This document shows, one piece after another, positions 3,338 through 15,715 of a stretch of DNA of 38,832 nucleotides (the first letter of the stretch is position 1; each line of letters begins with the position of its first letter). The stretch spans positions 1 through 38,832 of the forward strand of contig JAESSA010000001.1 in NCBI GenBank assembly GCA_016764355.1, written 5' to 3'. Position numbers and translations under genes: made by a program. This DNA is from Sneathiella sp. Lineage in GTDB: Bacteria; Pseudomonadota; Alphaproteobacteria; Sneathiellales; Sneathiellaceae. Below the pieces are notes generated by a model that worked only from the letters and a program-made list of their open reading frames with translations, ran no database searches and had not been told where the DNA came from.

Positions 3338-3979
3338 CTACGAGGGTTTCGCTGGATGGTGAAACCTGCTCAGTTGAGCCGGGTCTAGAGAATGCTTTTG
3401 GTCTTCTGCTCTCAGTTTTTTGATCCTGCGATAAAAACTGGACCGCGAAAGGCCAATTGATTTGGCAACCGCCGCCCCTGTTCGCGGGTTGCCGTTCTGA
3501 TCTGGTGTTGCCAGTAAATCTATGCCTTTTTGGATGGTGTCATCAGACACTTTTTCCTTCGGTCCAGAGCGTTTACCAGAAGCCCATGTCGCAATAAGGC
3601 TGCGTATGGTCCTCTCCTGAAGGAGATCTTTCTCAAGTTCAGTAAAGGCAGAGATGATAAGTCGGTAGGCGTCCCCTTTTGTCCCATCCGTGTCCCCGAT
3701 GCTGTCGGTAAGGGATTGAAAACCAATATTTCGACTATTCAGGCCTTCAAGAAAACTTACAAGTTCAATGGTTCGTAACCCTAAGCGGTCGAGTTTTAAC
3801 ACCACAAAGACATCACCGGCACTCATATGGCGAAGGGCCTTTTCCAACTCCGGTTTTATAGTGGTTACGCTTAAAACTTTCTCATAGAAAACTTTGCAAC
3901 ACCCGGCTGCTTTCAGGTCTCTGGTTTGATCATCAAGATGCTCAATTTCAGTGGAGACTCTGGCGTAACCAATTTTCAT
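3338..3979 (-). CDS. serine resolvase/invertase family recombinase, divergent
   Basis: About 213 aa from the chosen ATG at 3979 (MKIGYARVST). An upstream in-frame ATG at 4027 would add 16 hydrophobic residues not seen in the family. The N-terminal catalytic domain has the nucleophile S9 in YARVS, R7, the LDRLG segment with R65, and an E-helix ending in 'LLQERT'. A helix-turn-helix follows (GAAVAKSIGLSRSSFYRRI). Unusual: the second conserved Arg of LDRLGR is Leu (LDRLGLR), the EKxSG segment reads EKVLSV, and the basic linker before the HTH is altered. It may be a degenerate transposon remnant or a divergent active enzyme. No transposase gene or clear res site was found nearby. Confidence 0.8.
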   Translation of the reverse strand: MKIGYARVSTEIEHLDDQTRDLKAAGCCKVFYEKVLSVTTIKPELEKALRHMSAGDVFVVLKLDRLGLRTIELVSFLEGLNSRNIGFQSLTDSIGDTDGTKGDAYRLIISAFTELEKDLLQERTIRSLIATWASGKRSGPKEKVSDDTIQKGIDLLATPDQNGNPRTGAAVAKSIGLSRSSFYRRIKKLRAEDQKHSLDPAQLSRFHHPAKPS

Positions 3980-4604
3980 AAGGGGGTGTCCTGTATTGCA
4001 TGCACTAAAAATAATTATAATACACAATTATAGGAGGCTGGATCGAAAGACACAAAGTGCAAAATGAAAATCAGCATTCATAATTTCAACACGGTTACTT
4101 CTGAATGCCAGGCAAAAACCTAAAAAGCGCATTAAAATATTTGATTGTAAATAAGCAAGGTACAGTGTGCCATGCCAATTTATGCTAAACAACCAATAGT
4201 GTTTTCTGTTGTGTCTATGAACACAATGGGATCTTGTGAATTTGTTAATGTTTTTAGCTGTATTTTATGATCTGTTTTGAAATATAATGACTGGGAACTA
4301 CTTGCGAATGAACTAATATTTAATATAAAATTCAATGGTTTGTTCTTCCCATATCAATTTATAAGAAATTACTCTTGCTCTGTAAGAATGACACTGTATA
4401 AACAAATTTGTTGGCTGTAAGACAGTGTTGGTTGGGTTGATAATAGTAAAGTGTGGGTATTGTTCTAATAAATAAAAACAAGATATTCAACGATAGCGCG
4501 ATATTTTTGTCCGAAAATCTTTGGCTTTAAATAAAAAAAAGATGTCGCCCCTAAATATGCCGCCCTTTTCCTAACCTAAACCTTCATTAAGTGGTGATCG
4601 AAAT
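3980..4604. other. AT-rich intergenic region without a credible gene
   Basis: About 620 bases separate the resolvase start from the large secreted-protein gene. The stretch is clearly more AT-rich than its flanks and I find no ORF with coding character. It holds a TATAAT at 4283-4288 without a good -35, a 6-bp inverted repeat TTGTGT-N6-ACACAA (4209-4226) and a near-palindromic AT tract around 4011-4032 just upstream of the resolvase gene. The promoter of the secretion operon must lie here, but I cannot place it with confidence. Confidence 0.6.
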
Positions 4605-7600
4605 TTGACTGAGGAAACCGCCCCAAGTTCACTGGACCTTGCCCTGGATGCATTATCATCTGGTGAAAACAGTGCGCACCACTTGGATGTGCTTGGCGAC
4701 CTTACTAAGATTGAACTCATCTCAGAAGGGTTTAGCGCGTCCTCTGTAAGTGCTTCTATTGATGTCTTCCTGCCAGCCTTTATTGATAGCTTGGCCGCAG
4801 GACTTCCGCCTAAGGGTGCGTTTGCGCTGGCAAAAGAAGTTACCATTGAGCAATTGAGTATTATCGACGCCGCGCAACAAGATAATTCTGTTGAAGATTC
4901 TTTGCTAAAAGCTCTTGCGACAGGCGAAGAAATTGATCCTTCATTGCTTGAAGTGATGGGGGAGTGGGTCTCCTCTCAAGCGGTTTTTCAGCAAACTATT
5001 CAACAATCCTTGACCGAAGGGACGCCTATTGCAAAAGCAATGGAAAATTCTTCTAAAGCGGTTCTGGAAGATGAATATTTGTCAGCCCAAGGTGACAGTT
5101 TTCTGAAAGCATTGGCTGGGGCCGATGGATTGGCTGAGGCATTCAAAGAATTAGAAGATGCCGTCACAAAGGGAGTGCCTGAAGAATATCGCGAAGTTGC
5201 TTTGAAGGCATTTACGGAAACATTGAAGGAAATGTTGGCCCTTGGTAAATCCCTTGATGATGCAAAAGAGATGGCAAGCACCGAAGTTCAGTCTGCAGTT
5301 GAGCAAGCAAAAGCCCTTCAAGGGGATATGTCGTCTCAAGATGCTTTTCTGACCGCTTTAGCCAGTGGAAATGGTGTCGAAAAAGCGATTGGAGATATGG
5401 GAGCATCTGGGCCAGGTGCCAATGCCCAAAATTTTCAAAATGCACTTGCTAATGCATTAGCGGAAGGTTTGTCTTCAAATGACAGTTTTGAAAGTGCTCA
5501 GGCCGACGCCTTGGCCGTCACCATGGCGGAAGCGTCTGTTGCCATAGAAGTTCCGCCGGGGAATGACTTGTTAGCGGCACTTGCGACTGGCGACAATATT
5601 CAGAGTATTATTGAAAGTTTCACCCAAAACGGAACGGATGCTCAGGTTTTTCAGGCCGCTTTAAGTGAGGCCCTTGCCAGTGGCGCAAGCCCTGCTAATG
5701 CTATTATTCAGGCGGCGGTTCAGGCTGAAGTTGTGGCTCAGCTGGATACGGGGGCAACGGATAGTTTGCTCGCGGCCTTAGCGACGGGAGAAAATGTTCC
5801 TGAGGGTAATGACGGGTCGCAGGAATTCCAAAAAGCCTTGGCGGATGCCCTGGCTAATGAAGAGGACTTTAATACCGCGATGTTCGAGGCTGAAGATACA
5901 GCCCGCGCTATTGATATCGCCAAAAATGCGACGGAAATCCTCCCGCCTTCTGATAGCCCTGTTGCGCCGGAACCGGTTAGTGTGGTTGTCAGTGCCGACC
6001 CTCCCTCGGTACCAGTAGCTACAACGGAAGCGCCAACTGTCGTTGCGTCAATACCACCAGTAATAACTACAGTGACGCTTTTTTCTCCTCCCATCTCTAC
6101 ACCTCAAGTCGTGCCAGCTGAGCCGATAGCCTTTGTTCTGCCTCCTGATGTTTCTGGATTTGGACCTGATGTGCCTGAGGTTTCAGGCGATGAAAGTGAT
6201 CCGGAAGATGGTGATGAAGATCCGGATGAGGACGTTGAACCGGAGCCAACGCCAAGATCCGTTCGCCCAGATGATGATGATCCTCCAACACCGCAACCAA
6301 ATGTAACGCCCAGTACAGACATTAGTTTTTCTATCACTGCATCCTCGCTCAGTATCAGTGAAGAGGCCGGAGCAGGCACTAATTTTACAATTGTAATGAA
6401 CGGTGATGCGCTAACTGGTGCCAATCAGGCGACAGTGAACATAAATTCCTCAGGCTCGGCAACCGATGGTACTGATTATTACATAGCGATAGACGATGCT
6501 ATCGCCAGTGAAGGCGGAGGTGTCAGCCGGTTGGGGTCAATCCTAACATTTACATCAGAATTTGATGGTAGTCTGGAGTTTACTGTGACAGCCATAGATG
6601 ATGGGGAGGTTGAAGATACGGAGACCATTGTCGTGACTTTAAGCGGTGCGACTGTGACCGATGGCAGCGCTACAATCACAACAGCGCAGGCATCGACGGA
6701 CATTACCGAGGTTGATGCCGGGATCAGTTTTGAAATTTCCGCATCCCCGCTCAGTATCAGTGAAGAGGCCGGAGCAGGCACTAATTTTACAATTGTAATG
6801 AACGGTGATGCGCTGGTTGGTGCCAATCAGGCGACAGTGAACATAATTCCGTCAGGCTCGGCAACCGATGATATTGATTATTCCAGTTTTTACGCAGCGA
6901 TAGACGATGCTATCGCCAATGAAGGTGGGGGTGTCAGCCGGTTGGGATCAATCCTAACATTTACATCAGAATTTGATGGTAGTCTGAAATTTATAATCTT
7001 TGCCATTGATGATGCGGCTGCTGAAGGCACTGAAACCATTGTTGCTACCTTAAGCGATGCGGCTGTGACCAATGGCCGTGCTGGGATAACAGCAGCAGAG
7101 GCATCGGTGGATATCACCGAGACGGATCCAGTCGCTGACACGCCCCATATCGTGCCCCCTATGTATAATTATAGTCCGTCCTCGGGGAGTGTTTCTCAAA
7201 TATTAGGCTCCACAGAAGGTATTGCAGTAACCTTCGTTGATAATACATATGGTGACTGGTTTTACTCGAACGATAATTCAACGTGGATAGCCTTTACGGG
7301 ACTTTCTGATACTTCAGCGACATTGCTAAGTGGGGGCGAATATATTCGTTTCGTCGCAGATCCTTTATTTGATGGACAAGCGACATTTACTTTTAAAGTC
7401 TGGGATGAAAGTACAAACACATCCCAAGACACCGGCGTTGATACGACTTCTACAAGCTCAGTCATATCAGGCTATAATGTAGCAAGTGTCTCCGTTGTGT
7501 CTGAAAATCCAACCTCGAATAACTATACCTATAATTATTCCTATGACTTAGCCTCAGATCTCCCGACAGAATGGCTGGCAATTAATTTAACGGCCGGTAA

Positions 7601-8495
7601 AACCTATACATTTACTGTGGAAAACACGGAAACTTATGATGCGGATATCTCCGGTATTTATAATGTTGGGGGTTTTTTTATTCCTGGAACAACTGATGAG
7701 ACCGCAAGCGGTGACTCTGCAACGATAACCTATCTGGCAACCTCATCGGGTTACCATTATATTGAGATAACTTCTGATAGTGATTTGGCCGCGCTAATTG
7801 CTGCCGGAGATCCGACGGCATTTAGTTATGACTTTACCTATAGTGAAGTGGTTGATCCTCTCGTGATTGATCTGGATGGTAATGGCATTGCTTTCATATC
7901 AGCGGATCATGATTTTGCCATGACACCAGATGGTACGTCCGTTGCAGAGGGCTGGGTGAATGGGGATGACGGATTTTTGGTTCTGGATAAAAATGGTGAT
8001 GGTCAAATCGACAATATCTCAGAGATGTTTTCCGAATATTTCAGCGATGAGGCCACAAGCGGAATGGCGGCTCTTATCGCTTTTGATGAAAATGCCGATC
8101 AAGTTCTCAATAGTAGCGACGCCATTTTTAGCGAGCTTTCGATTTGGCAGGATTTGAATTCAAACGGCCTAACCGATCAAGGCGAATTGCGCAGTCTCGC
8201 TGAATGGGGAATTACAGAAATCTCCCTTGCCTCTGAAACTGTCAACGAGGTGGATTCAGGTAATGTTATTTTATCTGAAAGCCAAGTTACTTTTGAAGAT
8301 GGGCGGCAGACCAGCATGATTGAAGCAGGGCTGGTTGTAGAAAACGCGGTTACCTATAGCCAAATGATAACAGCAGCGTCAGATGAGACCCAAGCGATGA
8401 GTGAAGATGAGGCAGCTTATGAATTCACTCAATCAAATGCAGAATTAAACACTCCCCTAGAACAAGAAATCAGCCCCTTAGGGGATATTGCTTAA
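4605..8495 (+). CDS. large multidomain secreted protein, probable type I secretion substrate
   Basis: A 1296-aa acidic, Ala/Ser/Asp-rich protein. Residues about 10-440 contain degenerate repeats built on 'DSLLAALATGEN' and 'FQKALADALANG'. Residues 440-570 are a Pro/Val- then Asp/Glu-rich linker. Residues about 572-704 and 706-840 are two near-identical Calx-beta-like modules. Residues 850-930 form a bacterial adhesin-type module (GDWFYSNDNSTWIAF...IRFVADPLFDGQATFTF), and about 950-1080 resembles a PPC beta domain. Residues 1084-1210 hold calcium-loop motifs (LDLDGNG, DKNGDGQIDNISE, DLNSNGLTDQGE). No N-terminal signal peptide and no GGxGxDxUx RTX repeats are seen. The start appears to be TTG at 4605: a stop lies 11 codons upstream (4572) and no ATG/GTG lies between. 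Genes for TolC-, ABC- and HlyD-like proteins follow, so export by type I secretion is inferred. Confidence 0.85.
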   Translation: MTEETAPSSLDLALDALSSGENSAHHLDVLGDLTKIELISEGFSASSVSASIDVFLPAFIDSLAAGLPPKGAFALAKEVTIEQLSIIDAAQQDNSVEDSLLKALATGEEIDPSLLEVMGEWVSSQAVFQQTIQQSLTEGTPIAKAMENSSKAVLEDEYLSAQGDSFLKALAGADGLAEAFKELEDAVTKGVPEEYREVALKAFTETLKEMLALGKSLDDAKEMASTEVQSAVEQAKALQGDMSSQDAFLTALASGNGVEKAIGDMGASGPGANAQNFQNALANALAEGLSSNDSFESAQADALAVTMAEASVAIEVPPGNDLLAALATGDNIQSIIESFTQNGTDAQVFQAALSEALASGASPANAIIQAAVQAEVVAQLDTGATDSLLAALATGENVPEGNDGSQEFQKALADALANEEDFNTAMFEAEDTARAIDIAKNATEILPPSDSPVAPEPVSVVVSADPPSVPVATTEAPTVVASIPPVITTVTLFSPPISTPQVVPAEPIAFVLPPDVSGFGPDVPEVSGDESDPEDGDEDPDEDVEPEPTPRSVRPDDDDPPTPQPNVTPSTDISFSITASSLSISEEAGAGTNFTIVMNGDALTGANQATVNINSSGSATDGTDYYIAIDDAIASEGGGVSRLGSILTFTSEFDGSLEFTVTAIDDGEVEDTETIVVTLSGATVTDGSATITTAQASTDITEVDAGISFEISASPLSISEEAGAGTNFTIVMNGDALVGANQATVNIIPSGSATDDIDYSSFYAAIDDAIANEGGGVSRLGSILTFTSEFDGSLKFIIFAIDDAAAEGTETIVATLSDAAVTNGRAGITAAEASVDITETDPVADTPHIVPPMYNYSPSSGSVSQILGSTEGIAVTFVDNTYGDWFYSNDNSTWIAFTGLSDTSATLLSGGEYIRFVADPLFDGQATFTFKVWDESTNTSQDTGVDTTSTSSVISGYNVASVSVVSENPTSNNYTYNYSYDLASDLPTEWLAINLTAGKTYTFTVENTETYDADISGIYNVGGFFIPGTTDETASGDSATITYLATSSGYHYIEITSDSDLAALIAAGDPTAFSYDFTYSEVVDPLVIDLDGNGIAFISADHDFAMTPDGTSVAEGWVNGDDGFLVLDKNGDGQIDNISEMFSEYFSDEATSGMAALIAFDENADQVLNSSDAIFSELSIWQDLNSNGLTDQGELRSLAEWGITEISLASETVNEVDSGNVILSESQVTFEDGRQTSMIEAGLVVENAVTYSQMITAASDETQAMSEDEAAYEFTQSNAELNTPLEQEISPLGDIA
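6319..7122 (+). repeat. tandem ~402-bp repeat encoding two Calx-beta-like modules
   Basis: Long stretches are identical at nucleotide level between the two units. For example, 6348 onward matches 6750 onward for more than 60 bases, an offset of 402 bp (134 codons). The second copy then gains 9 bp (YYIAIDD versus YSSFYAAIDD). Conservation is patchy, with diverged sections between identical blocks, which suggests recent duplication or ongoing gene conversion. Confidence 0.85.
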
Positions 8496-8525
8496 AGGCA
8501 AGCAATCGTAAAATTGAGGTAACCC

Positions 8526-11429
8526 GTGTCTAAAAGAAATTTATTAATACTTATTCTCGCAATCATTATTGCTATTAGCGCGATTGGATCTTTCATCGCG
8601 CGGACAATTTTCTTTGCGGAAAAATTGGATCAAAGCATCACTGTCTCCTTGGTTGGCCCCATGAGCGGGGAAGAGGCTCAAACGGGGCTTTCCATGCGCC
8701 GGGGCGCTGAACTGTTCGCCGAACAATTTAATCAAAGCGGTGGGCTGAACGGAAAAGGGATAAAGCTAGACATACGGGACGATGCTAATTCTGCGGAAGA
8801 AACCAGCAAAATCGCGCAACAAATTGTCGCTGAACAGAAAGCCAGCGCGGTTGTCGGACATTGGAGGCAAGATCTGCAAGGAGCCGTTGCCGGGCTTTAT
8901 GAGGCAGATCAATTGCCTTTCATTACGGTATCAGCTAGCGATTCAGCCACATTAAAGAATAATGCGCGGATGTTTGGAGCCCAATATGGCTTGGTTCAGG
9001 AATCTAAATTTCTGGCAAACTACACGCGGAATGTTCTGGGAAAAAAGATCGTCACCATTATTCATGATGACAGTTCATATGGCACAACAGCGCAAAGCAA
9101 TTTTGAACAAGTCTATCTGCGCTTTGGTACAAAAATACGCTATATCCACAGCTTTGAAGCACAGAGCGAGGACCTCGATCAACGGCTTACGGCAATTGTC
9201 ACAGAACTGAAAAGTAAAAAAGATGCGGGCACTTTGTTTTTGGCGACACGGGCACCTATGGCCGCAAAACTTGTGAACCTAATCCGTCGGGCGGGTATTC
9301 GCAGCCAAATTGTCGGCCTGAATGTAATGGCCAGTCAAACTTTCCTAAAAGGATTGAATGAACTTCCCGGCGATCCTGCGCTAAAACCAAAATACACAGA
9401 CGGGATTATCGCCACTTCTCCCTTATTGTTTGATACGGCATCGCAACAAACTCAAGAATTTAAAAATAACTACATCAAGCGGTATGGTGAACAGCCAGAC
9501 TGGATTGCGGCCAATGCTTATGAAGCACTTCAATTAATTGTGGCAGGGTTGAAGGAGAAAACCGTTTCTGAGGGAACCGAGGATGAAGAGGTCGGCGTCA
9601 GCCGTCAAAATATCCAAGAATATCTGTCTAATCTGAAAAAGCCCGGTAAAGAATTTACAGGCGTGGCCGGCATTACAAGTTTCAAACCCAGCGGAGAATC
9701 CTTAAAACCAATTCAAATTGGTGTCTTTAATGGTCAGGATATTGTGGCGGCTATGACCCAGTTGCAGCCTTTAAGTGATGGTAGTCCCAGCAACTATTTT
9801 GATGAGATTAAAAAGGGTCGGATGCTCTATGTGAATGACAAATTCATGTATAAAACGAATGTCGTTTATACAGGTCTGCAATTGGAAAATATATCTGATC
9901 TGGATACGACCAAACGCGTTGCAAATATCGAATTTGCCTTATGGTTTCGCTACCGCGGGGATTTTAAGCCTGAAGAAGTTATCTTTCAAAATGCTGTTGA
10001 GCCCATTGTCCTGACAGAGCCAGAAGAAGCTTTCAAAGATGGTGATATTTCATTCAAGCTTTACCGGATTAAAGCCCTTTTTAATCTTGATTTTCTAGGC
10101 GGTAAACAGCGTTATGGTTATCACACCATTGGTCTTTCGTTCATGCATAAAAATCTGGATCGTAATAACCTGCTCTATGTTGTTGATATTCTCGGCATGG
10201 ATCTGAATAAGGGTGAAACACTCCTCTCCAAAATACAAAATAGCTCAGTAATAAGTCCGACACTTGGCTGGGGTGTTAAAAAAGCGTCCGTTTCTCAAGA
10301 ACTTTTCACCACGAGTGCTTTGGGTAAACCCATCTATGTGGGGTTTGGCTCGTTAGATCCAGAATATTCCCGAATTACCTTAGAGGCCTTGATTCAAGAA
10401 GATAAACTGCACGCCACAGACTTTATACCGGCAGAATATTTTATCTATATTGGTATCTTCGGTTTCGTTGGCGTGTTGTTTGCCTGGGGAATTGACAGAA
10501 AGACGAAAGATTTCTTTTGGGCGACGTCCTCTTGGGTGCTGCGGTGCATTTTTTGGCCGGTTAGTATGCTGGCTGTTGGTAACATCGCTCTCGATCTGTC
10601 TGTATCCTACCTCTCCTATCACTACACAAACATGATATCCCAAGGATATGACATGATGTGGTGGATAATTGGTGCATCACTGGGCAGCATTGCCCTTGAG
10701 CGGTTCCTATGGAGTCCCTTGGAGAAAAGAACAGAAAAGAAAATACCGGATGTAATCCGCTTATTTGCCTCGACAGCGATATACTTGCTCGCCATCTTCG
10801 GTATTGTTGCCTTTGTCTTTGGGGAGACGCTTACCAGTTTGCTTGCAACAGGTGGCTTGTTCACCATGATCATCGGTTTGGCGGTTCAGTCTAATATCGC
10901 CAATGTGTTCTCTGGTATCGTTGTTAATATTGAACGCCCGTTTACTGTTGGGGACTGGATCAAAATTGATAGTCTGGATGACACTGAAGTTCTCGATATT
11001 ACATGGCGTACAACACGCTTGAGAACCATGGCGGGGCTGATGATCAGTTTGCCAAATGCAAAGGTTGCTGAAGCCACCACCATCAACTATGCACGCAATA
11101 ACATTCGCCGGGACATTGAAATAAATGTCTCAACTGAGATTTTACCTGAAAAAGTCTGCTCGATCCTTCAGGAAATCCTCGATAATGATGAAGAACTTAA
11201 TCGGGTTGCCGCACCGTTTGTCGCCTATAAAGGCGTCAATATGGTTTATGGGCAAAATGTAAATACCTTTAAGCTTGGCGTTTGGCGGGATGAATATGGA
11301 ACTTCCTTTGCCATTATGGGGCCTCTTTGGCATAAAATTTGGGAAACCTTCAAGGCAAACGATATCCCCTTTATCCCCCCTGAAGGGGAACGGGTAATTC
11401 CAAAGCAGTATTTAGAACAAGTTTCTTAA
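8526..11429 (+). CDS. fusion of periplasmic binding protein and MscS-type channel
   Basis: 967 aa. Residues about 5-30 are an N-terminal membrane anchor or uncleaved signal. Residues about 38-410 are a type I periplasmic binding fold of the branched-chain amino-acid receptor kind (VSLVGPMSGEEAQTGLSMRRG; DDANSAEETSKIA; VVGHW; FITVSASDS; DWIAANAYEAL). Residues 420-630 are a beta-rich domain with 'LENISDLDTT' and 'EFALWFRYRG'. Four to five membrane helices follow (about 638-800), then the MscS pore-lining helix and beta domain (TGGLFTMIIGLAVQSNIANV; RPFTVGDWIKI; WRTTRLRT; SLPNAKV). It probably sits in the inner membrane with the binding domain in the periplasm, so a ligand-gated channel is a reasonable inference. 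GTG start with GAGGT upstream, 30 bp after the secreted-protein gene. Confidence 0.9.
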   Translation: MSKRNLLILILAIIIAISAIGSFIARTIFFAEKLDQSITVSLVGPMSGEEAQTGLSMRRGAELFAEQFNQSGGLNGKGIKLDIRDDANSAEETSKIAQQIVAEQKASAVVGHWRQDLQGAVAGLYEADQLPFITVSASDSATLKNNARMFGAQYGLVQESKFLANYTRNVLGKKIVTIIHDDSSYGTTAQSNFEQVYLRFGTKIRYIHSFEAQSEDLDQRLTAIVTELKSKKDAGTLFLATRAPMAAKLVNLIRRAGIRSQIVGLNVMASQTFLKGLNELPGDPALKPKYTDGIIATSPLLFDTASQQTQEFKNNYIKRYGEQPDWIAANAYEALQLIVAGLKEKTVSEGTEDEEVGVSRQNIQEYLSNLKKPGKEFTGVAGITSFKPSGESLKPIQIGVFNGQDIVAAMTQLQPLSDGSPSNYFDEIKKGRMLYVNDKFMYKTNVVYTGLQLENISDLDTTKRVANIEFALWFRYRGDFKPEEVIFQNAVEPIVLTEPEEAFKDGDISFKLYRIKALFNLDFLGGKQRYGYHTIGLSFMHKNLDRNNLLYVVDILGMDLNKGETLLSKIQNSSVISPTLGWGVKKASVSQELFTTSALGKPIYVGFGSLDPEYSRITLEALIQEDKLHATDFIPAEYFIYIGIFGFVGVLFAWGIDRKTKDFFWATSSWVLRCIFWPVSMLAVGNIALDLSVSYLSYHYTNMISQGYDMMWWIIGASLGSIALERFLWSPLEKRTEKKIPDVIRLFASTAIYLLAIFGIVAFVFGETLTSLLATGGLFTMIIGLAVQSNIANVFSGIVVNIERPFTVGDWIKIDSLDDTEVLDITWRTTRLRTMAGLMISLPNAKVAEATTINYARNNIRRDIEINVSTEILPEKVCSILQEILDNDEELNRVAAPFVAYKGVNMVYGQNVNTFKLGVWRDEYGTSFAIMGPLWHKIWETFKANDIPFIPPEGERVIPKQYLEQVS

Positions 11430-11446
11430 AGGGTCTCGTACACATT

Positions 11447-12775
11447 ATGAAAATGCATTTTAAGAAGCTTATTCTCCTGTCTGTTTGTTCTCTTGTCGCG
11501 ATATCCGCTCCGCACTCTTCAAGAGCTGTATCCCTGCAAGAACTGTTGCCAGAGATATTGGAAAATCACGAACGCATCCAAAGTAAAAAATATGCATTGG
11601 AGGCCGCACGGGAAGATATTGAGGTTAGACTCGGTGACTGGTATCCAACCGTCGACCTTTCCAGTGATTTTGGTCGTGAAATGCAAAATAAGCCCTCTGG
11701 CTCCGATGACACCTATTTAAACTATAAGCAAGCAAGCCTGGAAATCACCCAACTCATCACTGATTTTGGTGTGACAAGCGCGGCAGTTGATACTGCGAAA
11801 TTGAAATTTGATCGCGCAAAGCTTTCCTATTTTTCGGAAAGACAGGATCTTCTCTCTGATGCTGTTACAGCATATGTGGATGTTATCGGCGCGTGGAAAG
11901 TTTCAAAATTTGCGCAGCAATCGGAAGAAAACATCCGCAACCAGACTGGCCTTGAAGAAGTGCGGGTTTCCGTTGGTGGTGGCCTAACCACTGACGTGTT
12001 ACAAAGTAAATCTCAGTTGGCAGGGGCACAAACCAGACGAATTCGCGCTGATGGCAAATTGAATAAGGCGATCAATCATTTCGAGACAATTTTTGATTTC
12101 TCTCCCGATGATGTTCAGTCTTTTGAAGAATTTTCTCTTCCCTTTGATGTGAAATATGAAGAACAGAGTGACTTTGAAACTGTTCGAAACGGGAATTTCA
12201 AAATTCAAATTTCTGAAAATAAAGTGGAGGCGGCAAAAGCAAAAGTCAGAAGCCGTAAAGCCGGCTCATTTCGGCCTAGACTCGAGCTAAGCGCTAGCAT
12301 GAATGCCAAAGATAATGTCTCTGGTACTGCGGGGGTTCAAACCGAAGCTCTTTGGGGTGTTAAGGCCACTATGCCGTTGAATTTAGGGTTTACAGAATTA
12401 AATTCGATCAAATCGTCAAGGCATAAACTCAATTCCGAAAAAATGAAGCTTTCGACAACATATCGCTCTGTTCGAAAGAGTTATTTAAATGCATTGCAAG
12501 AAGTCAGAACATCGCGCCAGACTTTGGAATCCTTGGAGTTTCAAGTTGGAATTGCTGAGAATTTTTTAAAACTGTCCCGACAAGAACGGGAGCTTGGCCA
12601 GCGATCCTTGATCGATGTTTTATCTGGGGAAACGACGCTTATTAATGCACAAAGTGATGCGGAGGCCGCCAAAACAGATCTTTTGAAGGCCATTATCTCA
12701 CTCCAAGAAATTATGGGGAAACTAGATGTCACGCTCCTGTCTTCCGCTGTAATATCTTCCGAGAAAGTGCAATAA
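11447..12775 (+). CDS. TolC-family outer-membrane channel of type I secretion
   Basis: A 442-aa outer-membrane efflux protein. It begins with a Sec signal peptide (basic KMHFKK, hydrophobic core, likely cleavage after SRA near residue 27). Two repeats of long alpha-helices with TolC-type segments follow: 'ITDFGVTSAAVDTAKLKFD', 'AYVDVIGAWK', 'VSVGGGLTTDVLQSKSQLAGA' in the first half and 'QERELGQRSLIDVLSGETTL', 'EAAKTDLLKAIISLQEIMG' in the second. This is the usual pattern of the trimeric TolC/LapE exit duct spanning the outer membrane and periplasm. It starts 17 bp after the channel fusion gene and ends 10 bp before the ABC gene, so it is part of one transcription unit. It should dock with the HlyD-like adaptor encoded at the operon's end. 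Confidence 0.92.
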   Translation: MKMHFKKLILLSVCSLVAISAPHSSRAVSLQELLPEILENHERIQSKKYALEAAREDIEVRLGDWYPTVDLSSDFGREMQNKPSGSDDTYLNYKQASLEITQLITDFGVTSAAVDTAKLKFDRAKLSYFSERQDLLSDAVTAYVDVIGAWKVSKFAQQSEENIRNQTGLEEVRVSVGGGLTTDVLQSKSQLAGAQTRRIRADGKLNKAINHFETIFDFSPDDVQSFEEFSLPFDVKYEEQSDFETVRNGNFKIQISENKVEAAKAKVRSRKAGSFRPRLELSASMNAKDNVSGTAGVQTEALWGVKATMPLNLGFTELNSIKSSRHKLNSEKMKLSTTYRSVRKSYLNALQEVRTSRQTLESLEFQVGIAENFLKLSRQERELGQRSLIDVLSGETTLINAQSDAEAAKTDLLKAIISLQEIMGKLDVTLLSSAVISSEKVQ

Positions 12776-12785
12776 AGGCAGTAAA

Positions 12786-14429
12786 ATGAGGGAGTTATGG
12801 TTACGCCTACAGTCATATCCGTTTGTTTCTACGCAACTGATTGTGGCGTCTCTTTTTGCTAATCTTTTGGCGCTGGCAACCCCTGTCTTTGTGATCATGG
12901 TGCTTAATCGCTATATCGGGTCTGGCATTGATGCAACGTTAATCACTTTAACAAGTGGTGTTGTGCTTGCCATCCTTTTGGAATTTTGTTTCCGCTTTAT
13001 GCGTTTGAAACTAACGGAAAAAATAAACACCAAACGCAATCATGATTTGATGATTGGGGCGTTTGGGATGGTTTTGAGCGCGAAAATGAGGGCCCTTGCC
13101 GAACAAAGTGCAGGGGAGAAACGTGAGACCTTACAAGGGTTACAGATCATTGAAGCGGCTTATGCACCTTCAAATTTGACAACGCTTTTTGATTTTCCGT
13201 TTGCGCTAGTCTTTGTCTCTGTCCTTTTTCTTCTTGCCCCGGTTTTGGGTATCGTGGTGCTTTGTTTTCTTTGTGCCTCCTTGGGCATCAGCTACGTCGA
13301 TCGCCACCTGTCGCAGGAGAATATTAAAACATTAAGCAAGACGAATGCGTCGGGAAATTCCCTTATCAGTACGGCGGATTTAGCCAGTAAAACAGTTCGT
13401 GCCTTCAATCTTCAGAATGTGGTGATGAAAAAGTGGGGCCAGTATGTGTCTTCTTTCCTGTCCCAAAGAAGAAGATCTGGGCATCAACAAGGCACCGTTC
13501 AGGCTCTGATGGGTATGGTGCAGGCTTTGATGAGTGTCAGTATATATGCCATTGGCGCCTTGCTTGTTGTAAAGGGGGAGCTTGATATCGGCTCCCTTAT
13601 TGGAGCGAATATTCTGGCCTCACGTGCATTTGGTCCCATTACCCAACTTTCCCGCCTGCAGTCCTTGTTCAGCAAAGCCAAAATTGCCTTGGCTCGTATT
13701 CATGTGCTGGCTCAGATTGAGACAGAAAAAGATAAGGGGACAAGTCCGAAAGTGTATAAGGGCGGCCTTAAATTCAAGGATGTCTCGTTTTCTTATCCGG
13801 GCTCTACGATCCCTCTGTTTGAATCCCTTGATCTTACTATTACGCCCGGATCAATTTTAATTCTGGTGGGGGAAAGCGGAACCGGTAAAAGTACGTTTTT
13901 CCATATGGTCACGGGCCTGTTAGAGCCCGACCGAGGGCAGGTTTTGACCGATGGAATTGAAATGCAGCAGCTCTCCTTGCCGTGGTGGCGCCAGCAACTC
14001 ATATATCTCCCGCAGGAGCCCCTTTTCCTCTCTGCGTCCATCTTGGAAAATATGGATAACAGGTCTCCCCTTTTAGTAGAAAATGCCTTACGCCAAGCGG
14101 GTCTTGAAGAGTTTATTGATAATAGTGCGAAGGGGCTGGAGACGGTCTTGCATAATAACGGATTAAATTTACCCGTGGGTATTCGCCGCCGCCTAGCCCT
14201 TGCCCGTGCTTTTTTGAATGATGGGGCGCTTGTATTATGTGATGATCCCACAGAAGGCTTAGATATTGAGGGTCGGAAGATTGTTCTACAATGTCTGAAA
14301 AACCTGTCGGAGCAAGGTAAAACACTGATCATTGCGACAAATGATCCGGCAATCTTACGAGGCGCAAGTGTGGTTCTGGACTTAAATCAGAAACCAGCCC
14401 CGCAGATTCGAAAGATGGTTTCCCAGTGA
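12786..14429 (+). CDS. type I secretion ABC exporter with degenerate ATPase motifs
   Basis: 547 aa: a membrane domain (about 1-310, with NLLALATPVFVIMVLNRYI typical of type I exporters) and a nucleotide-binding domain (about 325-547). No N-terminal C39 peptidase-like domain is present. Walker A is intact (GESGTGKST, 362-370) and the Q-loop has Q410. The signature LSGGQ is replaced by LPVGI (462-466), the Walker B reads LVLCDDP with D487 where the catalytic Glu belongs, the D-loop region is EGLD, and the H-loop His is N519 (IIATND). ATP hydrolysis may therefore be slow, or need another subunit. It overlaps the adaptor gene by 4 bp (GTGA), so translation is probably coupled. Confidence 0.9.
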   Translation: MRELWLRLQSYPFVSTQLIVASLFANLLALATPVFVIMVLNRYIGSGIDATLITLTSGVVLAILLEFCFRFMRLKLTEKINTKRNHDLMIGAFGMVLSAKMRALAEQSAGEKRETLQGLQIIEAAYAPSNLTTLFDFPFALVFVSVLFLLAPVLGIVVLCFLCASLGISYVDRHLSQENIKTLSKTNASGNSLISTADLASKTVRAFNLQNVVMKKWGQYVSSFLSQRRRSGHQQGTVQALMGMVQALMSVSIYAIGALLVVKGELDIGSLIGANILASRAFGPITQLSRLQSLFSKAKIALARIHVLAQIETEKDKGTSPKVYKGGLKFKDVSFSYPGSTIPLFESLDLTITPGSILILVGESGTGKSTFFHMVTGLLEPDRGQVLTDGIEMQQLSLPWWRQQLIYLPQEPLFLSASILENMDNRSPLLVENALRQAGLEEFIDNSAKGLETVLHNNGLNLPVGIRRRLALARAFLNDGALVLCDDPTEGLDIEGRKIVLQCLKNLSEQGKTLIIATNDPAILRGASVVLDLNQKPAPQIRKMVSQ

Positions 14430-15715
14430 AATTATTTTTAAAAGTAAACCTATCTTCGTTCAGCTTGATCAACAATGTTTTCTTTTTGATGACCTTTGGT
14501 CTTGTGGCCATTTTCTGGTGGATGTCACTGGGGACCTTGGATGTTGTCAGTCTCGCCAATGGTGAAGTTATTCCCGTAGGGCAGGTTAAAAAAGTACAGC
14601 ATCTGGAAGGGGGAATCGTCCAGGAAATATTGGTTCGAGAAGGGGAAACTGTCACGAAAGGTCAGGCTGTATTTGTTTTGGATAGCACACAATTAGAAGC
14701 CGACAAAATTGAACTGGAGAGCAGGTTAACGGTCGTATCCGTCAAGATACTACGTTTGAAGGCGGAAATTTCGCAAGATCGGTTATTAAAGATACCATCT
14801 GAATTGATTAGAAAATCCCCTGAAATAGCGGCTCAAGAAACTGACTTGTTCAACACTAGAGGGCAGCGCTTAACCGAACAGTTGGACGTTCAAAAGGAAC
14901 TTATCGCTCAAAAAGAATTGCAAGTAGGCGAGATCGAGACCCAAATTGAACGGGGACTGGACGTAAAAAGACTGTCTGATGAGCAAATCGATATTAGTGA
15001 AAAAATGCTGAAAAACGCACTGGGTAGTCGTTTGGCGCATATATCTTTGTTGAAAGAAGGCACGAACCTAACGGCTAAGATTGAGCAGAATATGGCTCTG
15101 TTGCTTCAAACCCGCGCAGCTCTGAGAGAAGCGAATACGCGCATAAGCATGATCAAAACTATATTTGATGAAGATGTCAAAACCCAATTGAGTGAGGCAG
15201 AGCAGAAAAGGCGCGAACTGTCCCAAGTTGTCATCAAAATCAAAGCACAATTGGATCGTATGACCTTGCGGGCTCCTGTCGATGGTATTGTAAAGGCGCT
15301 TTTTGTCCATTCAGAGGGCGAGGTCATTACGCGCGGTGGTACGGTTCTTGAGATTGTTCCTGCGGGGGATCAATTGGTTATTGAGGCCTTATTGCCAGCA
15401 GTCGAGATTGGTTTTGTGAGCCTTGATCAAGCCGTGCAAATTCGCTTGGCATCCGTAGACGCAGGCCGTTTTGGTAAAATGGACGGTCAAATACACACCA
15501 TCAGTCCGGATTCTTTTGTCGATGAAAAAGGGGTAAGTTTTTACAAAATCTACGTCACCCCAAAGGACGCTGCCTTTAGCCACGGGAAAACAACGTATAA
15601 ACTCTCCCCCGGTGTGCAAGTGATCTGCAGCATTATTACGGATCAGCGGACAATCCTAAGCTACTTGTTTGACCCCTTTTTCCGCCAGTTTGGATCAGCT
15701 CTGACCGAACGATAA
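14426..15715 (+). CDS. HlyD-family membrane-fusion adaptor of type I secretion
   Basis: A 429-aa periplasmic adaptor linking the inner-membrane exporter to the TolC-like duct. A single N-terminal membrane helix lies at about residues 19-37 (FFLMTFGLVAIFWW). The first lipoyl half follows (GEVIPVGQVKKVQHLEGGIV, REGETVTKGQAVFVLD). A long coiled-coil hairpin covers roughly 90-270, and the second lipoyl half and beta-barrel follow (DRMTLRAPVDGIVKAL, HSEGEVITRGGTVLEIVP). This is the standard HlyD/LapC layout. The GTG start overlaps the ABC stop codon. It is the last gene of the operon; no clear intrinsic terminator follows before the convergent folC end 51 bp away. Confidence 0.93.
   Translation: MKLFLKVNLSSFSLINNVFFLMTFGLVAIFWWMSLGTLDVVSLANGEVIPVGQVKKVQHLEGGIVQEILVREGETVTKGQAVFVLDSTQLEADKIELESRLTVVSVKILRLKAEISQDRLLKIPSELIRKSPEIAAQETDLFNTRGQRLTEQLDVQKELIAQKELQVGEIETQIERGLDVKRLSDEQIDISEKMLKNALGSRLAHISLLKEGTNLTAKIEQNMALLLQTRAALREANTRISMIKTIFDEDVKTQLSEAEQKRRELSQVVIKIKAQLDRMTLRAPVDGIVKALFVHSEGEVITRGGTVLEIVPAGDQLVIEALLPAVEIGFVSLDQAVQIRLASVDAGRFGKMDGQIHTISPDSFVDEKGVSFYKIYVTPKDAAFSHGKTTYKLSPGVQVICSIITDQRTILSYLFDPFFRQFGSALTER

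Follow-up and report, generated by a model that had tools for sequence, protein, structure and literature searches.

A chimeric channel gene of Sneathiella in which a periplasmic binding protein domain and a pentameric-receptor-type extracellular domain precede an MscS-type pore

The stretch of Sneathiella sp. DNA analysed here (38,832 nucleotides of contig JAESSA010000001.1, hereafter the window) carries five codirectional and tightly spaced genes, in the order giant surface protein, channel, TolC, ABC exporter and HlyD, the second of which is our subject (Table 1). Judging from sequence and structural modelling, its single product almost certainly has three parts, namely a periplasmic binding protein type I (PBP-I) clamshell, an extracellular domain (ECD) of the kind found in pentameric ligand-gated ion channels (pLGICs) and an MscS-type pore with five transmembrane (TM) helices. 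The open reading frame (ORF) is uninterrupted and begins with GTG; a ribosome site of the GAGG type ('ttgaggtaaccc') lies upstream of its start, and stops are abundant on the opposite strand. A scan for promoters and terminators gave nothing better than shuffled sequences. An initial annotation made from the letters alone had described one polypeptide joining a binding protein domain to an MscS pore, which the intact frame of 967 residues, the Pfam domains and the full-length relatives confirm; it had left out the third domain (residues ~430-632) and had recognised the MscS core only instead of five membrane helices.

Table 1. Coordinates of the channel gene, its domains and the genes of the same operon within the window
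Feature	Position	Strand	Detail
Chimeric channel gene: PBP-I clamshell, pLGIC-type ECD, 5-TM MscS-type pore	8526..11429	+	967 aa
N-terminal TM helix (residues 6-24)	8541..8597	+	Kyte-Doolittle peak 3.02
PBP-I domain (residues 38-410)	8637..9755	+	Peripla_BP_6; LivJ-type PDB chains
pLGIC (Cys-loop/Pro-loop receptor) type ECD (residues ~430-632)	9813..10421	+	AF2 with Foldseek/VIA, hhalign, alignment; 'PFD' lost
TM1-TM4 (residues ~637-766)	10434..10823	+	TM3-4 equivalent to MscS TM1-2; TM1-2 additional, as in YnaI
MscS pore helix (residues 770-800)	10833..10925	+	Conserved among 25 MscS-type sequences; Met781/Leu785 presumed gate ring
MscS beta domain (791-857), followed by a candidate C-terminal cage domain (861-949)	10896..11372	+	PF00924 2.4e-15, PF21082 0.0059
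Giant surface protein, predicted type I secretion substrate	4605..8495	+	1296 aa; N-terminal helical domain, Ala-rich repeats, Calx-beta, C-terminal 'DLDGNGI' EF-hand-like region
N-terminal domain of surface protein, conserved, ~75 aa	4629..4856	+	Leave-one-out HMM matches
TolC-family outer membrane protein	11447..12775	+	PF02321 3.6e-47; TIGR01844 9e-55, below cut-off
Type I secretion ABC permease/ATPase	12786..14429	+	Best TIGR03375 1e-98, below cut-off
HlyD-family type I secretion adaptor	14426..15715	+	TIGR01843 3e-98, over cut-off

Both ends of the channel protein were recognised by profile searches. Indeed, the two domain matches that the initial annotation had proposed to look for were obtained over their cut-offs, with Peripla_BP_6 at residues 38-344 (5.2e-39) and MS_channel_2nd (PF00924) at 791-857 (2.4e-15), while MS_channel_3rd (PF21082) at 861-949 reached 17.4 bits, just below its cut-off of 21. 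The solved sequence relatives of residues 43-406 are LivJ-type binding proteins and those of residues 679-922 are YnaI and MscS. In addition, the family profile aligns to YnaI 17-320 and MscS 35-283, with a membrane part of five helices in the YnaI layout, and a profile of eight rows (A7) matched the MscS structure 2vv5 at 8e-22 up to MscS residue 283; residues 769-960 had thus been read correctly as the MscS pore helix and beta domain. The pore helix, the beta domain and the arrangement of five helices align with YnaI (profile positions 14-317) and MscS, as the cage probably does too, whereas YnaI and MscS have neither a PBP nor a pLGIC-type periplasmic domain. Within the pore helix, G777, M781, G784, L785 and Q788 are conserved or nearly so in the 25 MscS-type sequences, and the hydrophobic positions 781 and 785 are, as we take it from position mapping, those of the MscS Leu105/Leu109 ring. 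Residues 6-24 are predicted to anchor the protein in the membrane, although they may instead be a signal peptide, and the loop charges place clamshell and ECD on the periplasmic side by the positive-inside rule ('SKRN' precedes helix 6-24; 'DRKTKD' and 'PLEKRTEKK' lie inside), which is consistent with the topology first predicted.

The middle domain gave no relevant match to Pfam on its own (residues ~430-632), and its profile found nothing relevant among PDB sequences with hmmsearch; we therefore used structure prediction and intermediate sequences. An AlphaFold2 (AF2) model of this domain alone reached a pLDDT of 56 and a pTM of 0.58, with the core (41-147) mostly at 60-84. Among the matches listed by Foldseek for this model, 50 of 50 rows were AChBP or pLGIC, and VIA-align likewise listed pLGICs in 50 of 50 rows, with ELIC at Z 12.9 (154 residues, 3.4 A) and DeCLIC at Z 12.1. 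The intermediate sequences came from a phylum search, which found the same domain in proteins of 710-765 residues that have the same PBP-I clamshell but a four-helix pLGIC pore and a 'YPFD.Q' Pro-loop (L059 and L061-L068, hereafter PBP-pLGICs). With hhalign, the MscS-type middle domain matched the ECD of these receptors at 99.6% (E 7e-25, score 158, against at most 21 in 100 column shuffles), and their ECDs in turn matched those of classical bacterial pLGICs (E 1.6e-8, score 58.5 vs 21.5 shuffled). The AChBP-like extracellular beta-sandwich of pLGICs is thus present by both the AF2 model and the profile chain with its shuffled controls, and we regard it as established, on sequence and modelling grounds, that residues ~430-632 are an ECD of the Cys-loop/Pro-loop family of pentameric ligand-gated channels. 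This domain includes VNDKFMYKTNVVYTG, the best-conserved segment of the receptor family under study.

The PBP-pLGICs resemble the pentameric receptors in their pores also, which matched classical bacterial pLGIC pores at 98.1% (E 1e-13, score 80, against at most 17 in 50 shuffles). As examples, L062 matches the solved DeCLIC over residues 500-705, its C-terminal part, and L064 has Neur_chan_memb and Neur_chan_LBD matches, both sub-threshold. Bacterial receptors of this kind, with PBP-I, ligand-binding domain (LBD) and four TM helices, are known as ART-LGICs, and the bacterial forms preserve the core of LBD and four TM helices (Tasneem et al., Genome Biol 2004, PMC549065). The window protein follows the same order, from N-terminal helix to PBP-I clamshell, pLGIC-type ECD and membrane channel; however, ART-LGICs have the four-helix pLGIC pore, the YPFD Pro-loop and the amino-acid-site signature, whereas the window protein has an MscS-type pore and has lost the latter two. 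Indeed, in the alignment the MscS-type receptors have YG.HT in place of PFD, and 'FNLDFLGGKQRYGYHTIGL' replaces 'FDFHDYPFDHQQLKV'. A pLGIC origin of TM1-3 in the MscS-type receptors found no signal by profile comparison (score 12 vs 14.7 in shuffles), and the four-helix M1-M4 pore was rejected as a candidate, the pore being that of MscS by Pfam and by the YnaI/MscS profile alignment. Since neither the pLGIC pore nor the Pro-loop is found, the window protein is not a pLGIC but belongs to the MscS superfamily, where its sensor is of a new kind.

The initial annotation had proposed a Leu/Ile/Val-type clamshell, of which the PBP-I fold related to LivJ is supported and the amino-acid type is not. 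The alpha-amino-acid site of LivJ consists, as we take it, of Ser79, Thr102 and Glu226 (the LivJ sequence used for this mapping was checked against 1z15). These residues are kept in 7/8, 8/8 and 7/8 of the pLGIC-type, four-TM receptors vs 6/25, 3/25 and 0/25 of the MscS-type receptors, and the window protein has Gln, Ser and Asn there, so that the leucine-site signature is lost. Moreover, the clamshell is the least conserved part of the channel, with 25-37% identity between the window protein and its relatives, vs 42-51% in the ECD and 49-59% in the pore for the close group. Because the LivJ site residues are lost and the clamshell is the most variable part, a branched-chain amino acid is an improbable ligand; the ligand may instead be species-dependent or a protein partner.

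These data bear directly on the model first proposed, in which an amino-acid clamshell gates the MscS pore directly on the principle of glutamate receptors. The PBP-I fold and the retention of the LivJ site in the pLGIC-type sisters speak for it; we nevertheless consider it improbable, with the signature lost in the MscS-type receptors (Glu226 in none of 25) and a pLGIC-type domain standing between clamshell and pore. Both are indeed on one chain, as had been claimed, but they are not joined directly, and since a pLGIC-type ECD intervenes, the nearer precedent is the PBP-bearing pLGIC rather than the glutamate receptor. Ionotropic glutamate receptors resemble the window protein in placing PBP folds on a pore, by analogy only, whereas the window protein has no PBP-II ligand domain interrupted by a P-loop pore and takes its pore and proximal sensor from other families. 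In addition, DeCLIC also has extra periplasmic domains ahead of its pLGIC ECD (PMC12664993), with a four-TM pore and no PBP-I clamshell.

The same architecture was found in more than 20 relatives from alpha- and gammaproteobacteria, Azospirillum megaplasmids and one putative Campylobacterota metagenome-assembled genome (MAG), and those from independent assemblies share 34-38% identity over their full length with the window protein; a chance fusion or misassembly is thereby rejected. As an example, a scan of species representatives gave three loci with ~35% identity nearly end to end, two in Rhodospirillales MAGs (L018 and L020) and one in the putative Campylobacterota MAG, from a sulphur cave (L019, DZAY01000001.1), and nine Azospirillum plasmid records carry a relative with ~35% identity over at least 95% of the length. 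Relatives were found with a profile of the middle part in 5/385 sampled alphaproteobacteria, the window genome included, and a phylum-wide search matched either architecture in 39/349 sampled genomes, the MscS type in ~21 by our own reading of the table. None was found in viral contigs. The presence of the channel is patchy, since full-length relatives are missing from all 24 congeneric genomes searched; together with a resolvase gene (PF00239, 5e-26) adjoining the operon at 3338-4027 on the minus strand, this suggests horizontal acquisition.

A tree of the periplasmic half, unrooted and with long branches, split 8 pLGIC-type from 25 MscS-type receptors by one branch (100/99), and one pore swap therefore suffices to explain the two types. 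The tree of the pores separated the fused pores from 8 standalone MscS (96/91). The two best-scoring of these standalone pores carry cNMP_binding domains, so the donor of the pore may have been a cyclic-nucleotide-type MscS, as far as this small sample goes; this would match P0015 (locus L030), a variant with an extra C-terminal cNMP_binding domain (4.4e-20) that the Pfam scan did not find in the window protein. At L030 (G299:C102, 2493-6032, minus strand), clamshell, pLGIC-type ECD, MscS pore and cNMP_binding domain stand on one chain of 1179 aa, which adjoins an ABC exporter gene. MscS channels with cytoplasmic cyclic-nucleotide domains (bCNG) are known and are a precedent for ligand-gated MscS. 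They share with the window protein an MscS pore and a sensor domain; their sensor is cytoplasmic and C-terminal, whereas the window protein has none there and would sense from the periplasm. The cNMP_binding domains of P0015 and of the best-scoring standalone pores therefore point to a ligand-gated background of these pores.

The genes around the channel form a type I secretion system (T1SS) operon at 4605-15715, with ABC exporter, HlyD and TolC beside a large substrate, and this HlyD is the only type I adaptor over cut-off in the 66%-complete genome. The association recurs, as type I secretion genes lie nearby in 17/25 MscS-type loci, sharing the strand in 16 and being divergent in L079, and a giant surface protein is directly adjacent in five further ones (L018, L020, L028, L074 and L083). 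Of the remaining three, L030 is the cNMP variant, one is a second copy in L076, and L082 lies at the end of a contig. Note that these 25 loci are not independent, several coming from one genus or being near-copies (L018/L020). In contrast, PBP-pLGIC loci adjoin MCP-like or OppA genes (L085 10217-11935, L086 7215-8804, L087 9894-11450; L084 3256-4917), which is consistent with the chemoreceptor proposal of Tasneem et al., and none of the five examined has a T1SS/adhesin operon; HlyD and M50-HlyD genes were found near two. Paired HlyD-type genes were seen near receptor loci of both types (L077 11915-15399, L085 3221-6728 and L087 12312-17465), one gene of the L085 pair being fused to an M50 peptidase and the L077 and L087 pairs being assigned by sequence resemblance only.

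An N-terminal domain of ~75 residues is common to the surface proteins encoded beside the receptor. It was recovered by leave-one-out hidden Markov model (HMM) searches, and among those proteins that were scanned neither Pfam nor NCBIfam matched it; we consider it a candidate module for periplasmic retention or docking. This domain and 'ALA.G' helical repeats were seen in the surface proteins of the window (4629-4856), L018, L026, L069, L079 and L083, and the surface-protein gene of L019 is interrupted by a run of N. Across 349 genomes searched, the domain co-occurs with the receptor in 14/17 genomes, and at the genus level both occur in 8, the domain only in 1, the receptor only in 1 and neither in 175, a co-occurrence inflated by related genomes and seed sequences. 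LapG-type peptidases were found in 10/19 genomes with the middle domain, and the secretion/receptor module therefore neither requires nor excludes LapG. Some receptor/T1SS clusters also contain a dCache-adenylate/guanylate cyclase gene (L076 8894-11122, plus strand) or a response-regulator GGDEF gene (L075 2815-4458, minus strand), a possible link to cyclic nucleotides or c-di-GMP.

From the computed architecture, conservation, kinship with the PBP-pLGICs, YnaI-like layout and operon, we infer ligand gating, the ligand class, the ion flux with its direction and the role of the channel as follows. It is in our judgement fairly probable that this natural chimera, with a PBP-I clamshell on a pLGIC-type ECD on a five-helix MscS pore, is gated from the periplasm and serves the T1SS/adhesin module. 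The clamshell would change when bound in the periplasm, either by a secretion-machine or adhesin component or by a small molecule that is not an amino acid of the LivJ type; the beta-sandwich domain would use its last strand to relay the change to TM1, upon which the MscS pore would open and let ions or osmolytes flow. A periplasmic signal would thereby be coupled to the type I secretion/adhesin module that shares the operon, and we propose that the channel acts in adhesin secretion or surface sensing. More specifically, we give an even chance to the idea that the ECD of a Cys-loop receptor drives a foreign pore, with its own ring become seven-fold, the MscS ring five-fold, or the two in symmetry mismatch, and that it informs the secretion module of the state of the giant adhesin secreted with it, or of its environment.

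Several observations weigh against this interpretation. The clamshell does not have the leucine-site residues, so that small-molecule binding may be absent. The homology of the middle domain leans on the intermediate receptors and on an AF2 model of modest confidence; its direct match to classical pLGIC ECDs was weak (E 0.004, 33 columns, score 26.5 vs 21.2), albeit in the same register. The full-length AF2 model, built with four sequences, was too poor for use (pLDDT 46). In pLGICs, the Pro-loop contacts the pore domain, and this coupler of ECD to pore is lost in the MscS-type receptors. Finally, all MscS structures found are sevens and all pLGIC structures found are fives, and the fit of the two rings has to be accounted for.

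Among the alternatives, the most serious, although unlikely, is an MscS channel gated by tension or force, in which the periplasmic PBP and pLGIC-type domains dock with, and hold or read, the T1SS or the retained N-terminus of the giant adhesin, and in which a pull on the adhesin or the secretion state, instead of a diffusible ligand, opens the pore. The operon with T1SS and adhesin, the co-occurrence of the receptor with the adhesin N-terminal domain, and the loss of ligand residues in the most variable part of the chain would all agree with it; in contrast, it assumes the topology of the adhesin as well as its periplasmic retention and contact, and the best-scoring standalone MscS relatives are channels with cyclic-nucleotide domains. 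The protein might also be no channel at all, but a membrane-anchored periplasmic sensor or T1SS assembly factor that uses the MscS part as an oligomeric scaffold; the operon context and the unusual combination of symmetries would suit such a role, but the high conservation of the pore helix (G777, G784, N801, E803, R804, G809 and hydrophobic 781/785) makes it very improbable. That the middle domain is an unrelated beta-sandwich, pulled towards pLGICs by chance in AF2 and the alignment, is scarcely credible despite the weak direct profile match and modest model confidence, given a structural match of Z 12.9 that spans 154 residues, the presence of pLGIC chains alone among the rows listed, the strong profile match to receptors with a four-TM pLGIC pore, and its place between PBP and membrane in both groups.

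Public annotation hides the architecture of these proteins. As an example, the copy of Azospirillum sp. B510 (WP_012976639.1, locus L026, 11875-14943) is named 'ABC transporter substrate-binding protein' despite its MscS pore, a label that is misleading. Our literature search, made in open-licence PMC and not in preprints, subscription papers, TCDB or InterPro architecture lists, turned up no description of an MscS pore that bears a PBP or pLGIC domain, and in this literature the nicotinic-receptor sensor domain of membrane receptors always comes with its own four-helix pentameric pore. Altogether, this pore was apparently swapped once for that of MscS and kept across proteobacteria, and these findings point to an ion channel as a permanent component of a module for type I adhesin secretion. 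If the proposed reading is true, Cys-loop gating can drive a foreign pore, which raises the question of how a five-fold ring is fitted to a seven-fold one, and the family provides a ligand-gated MscS open to testing.

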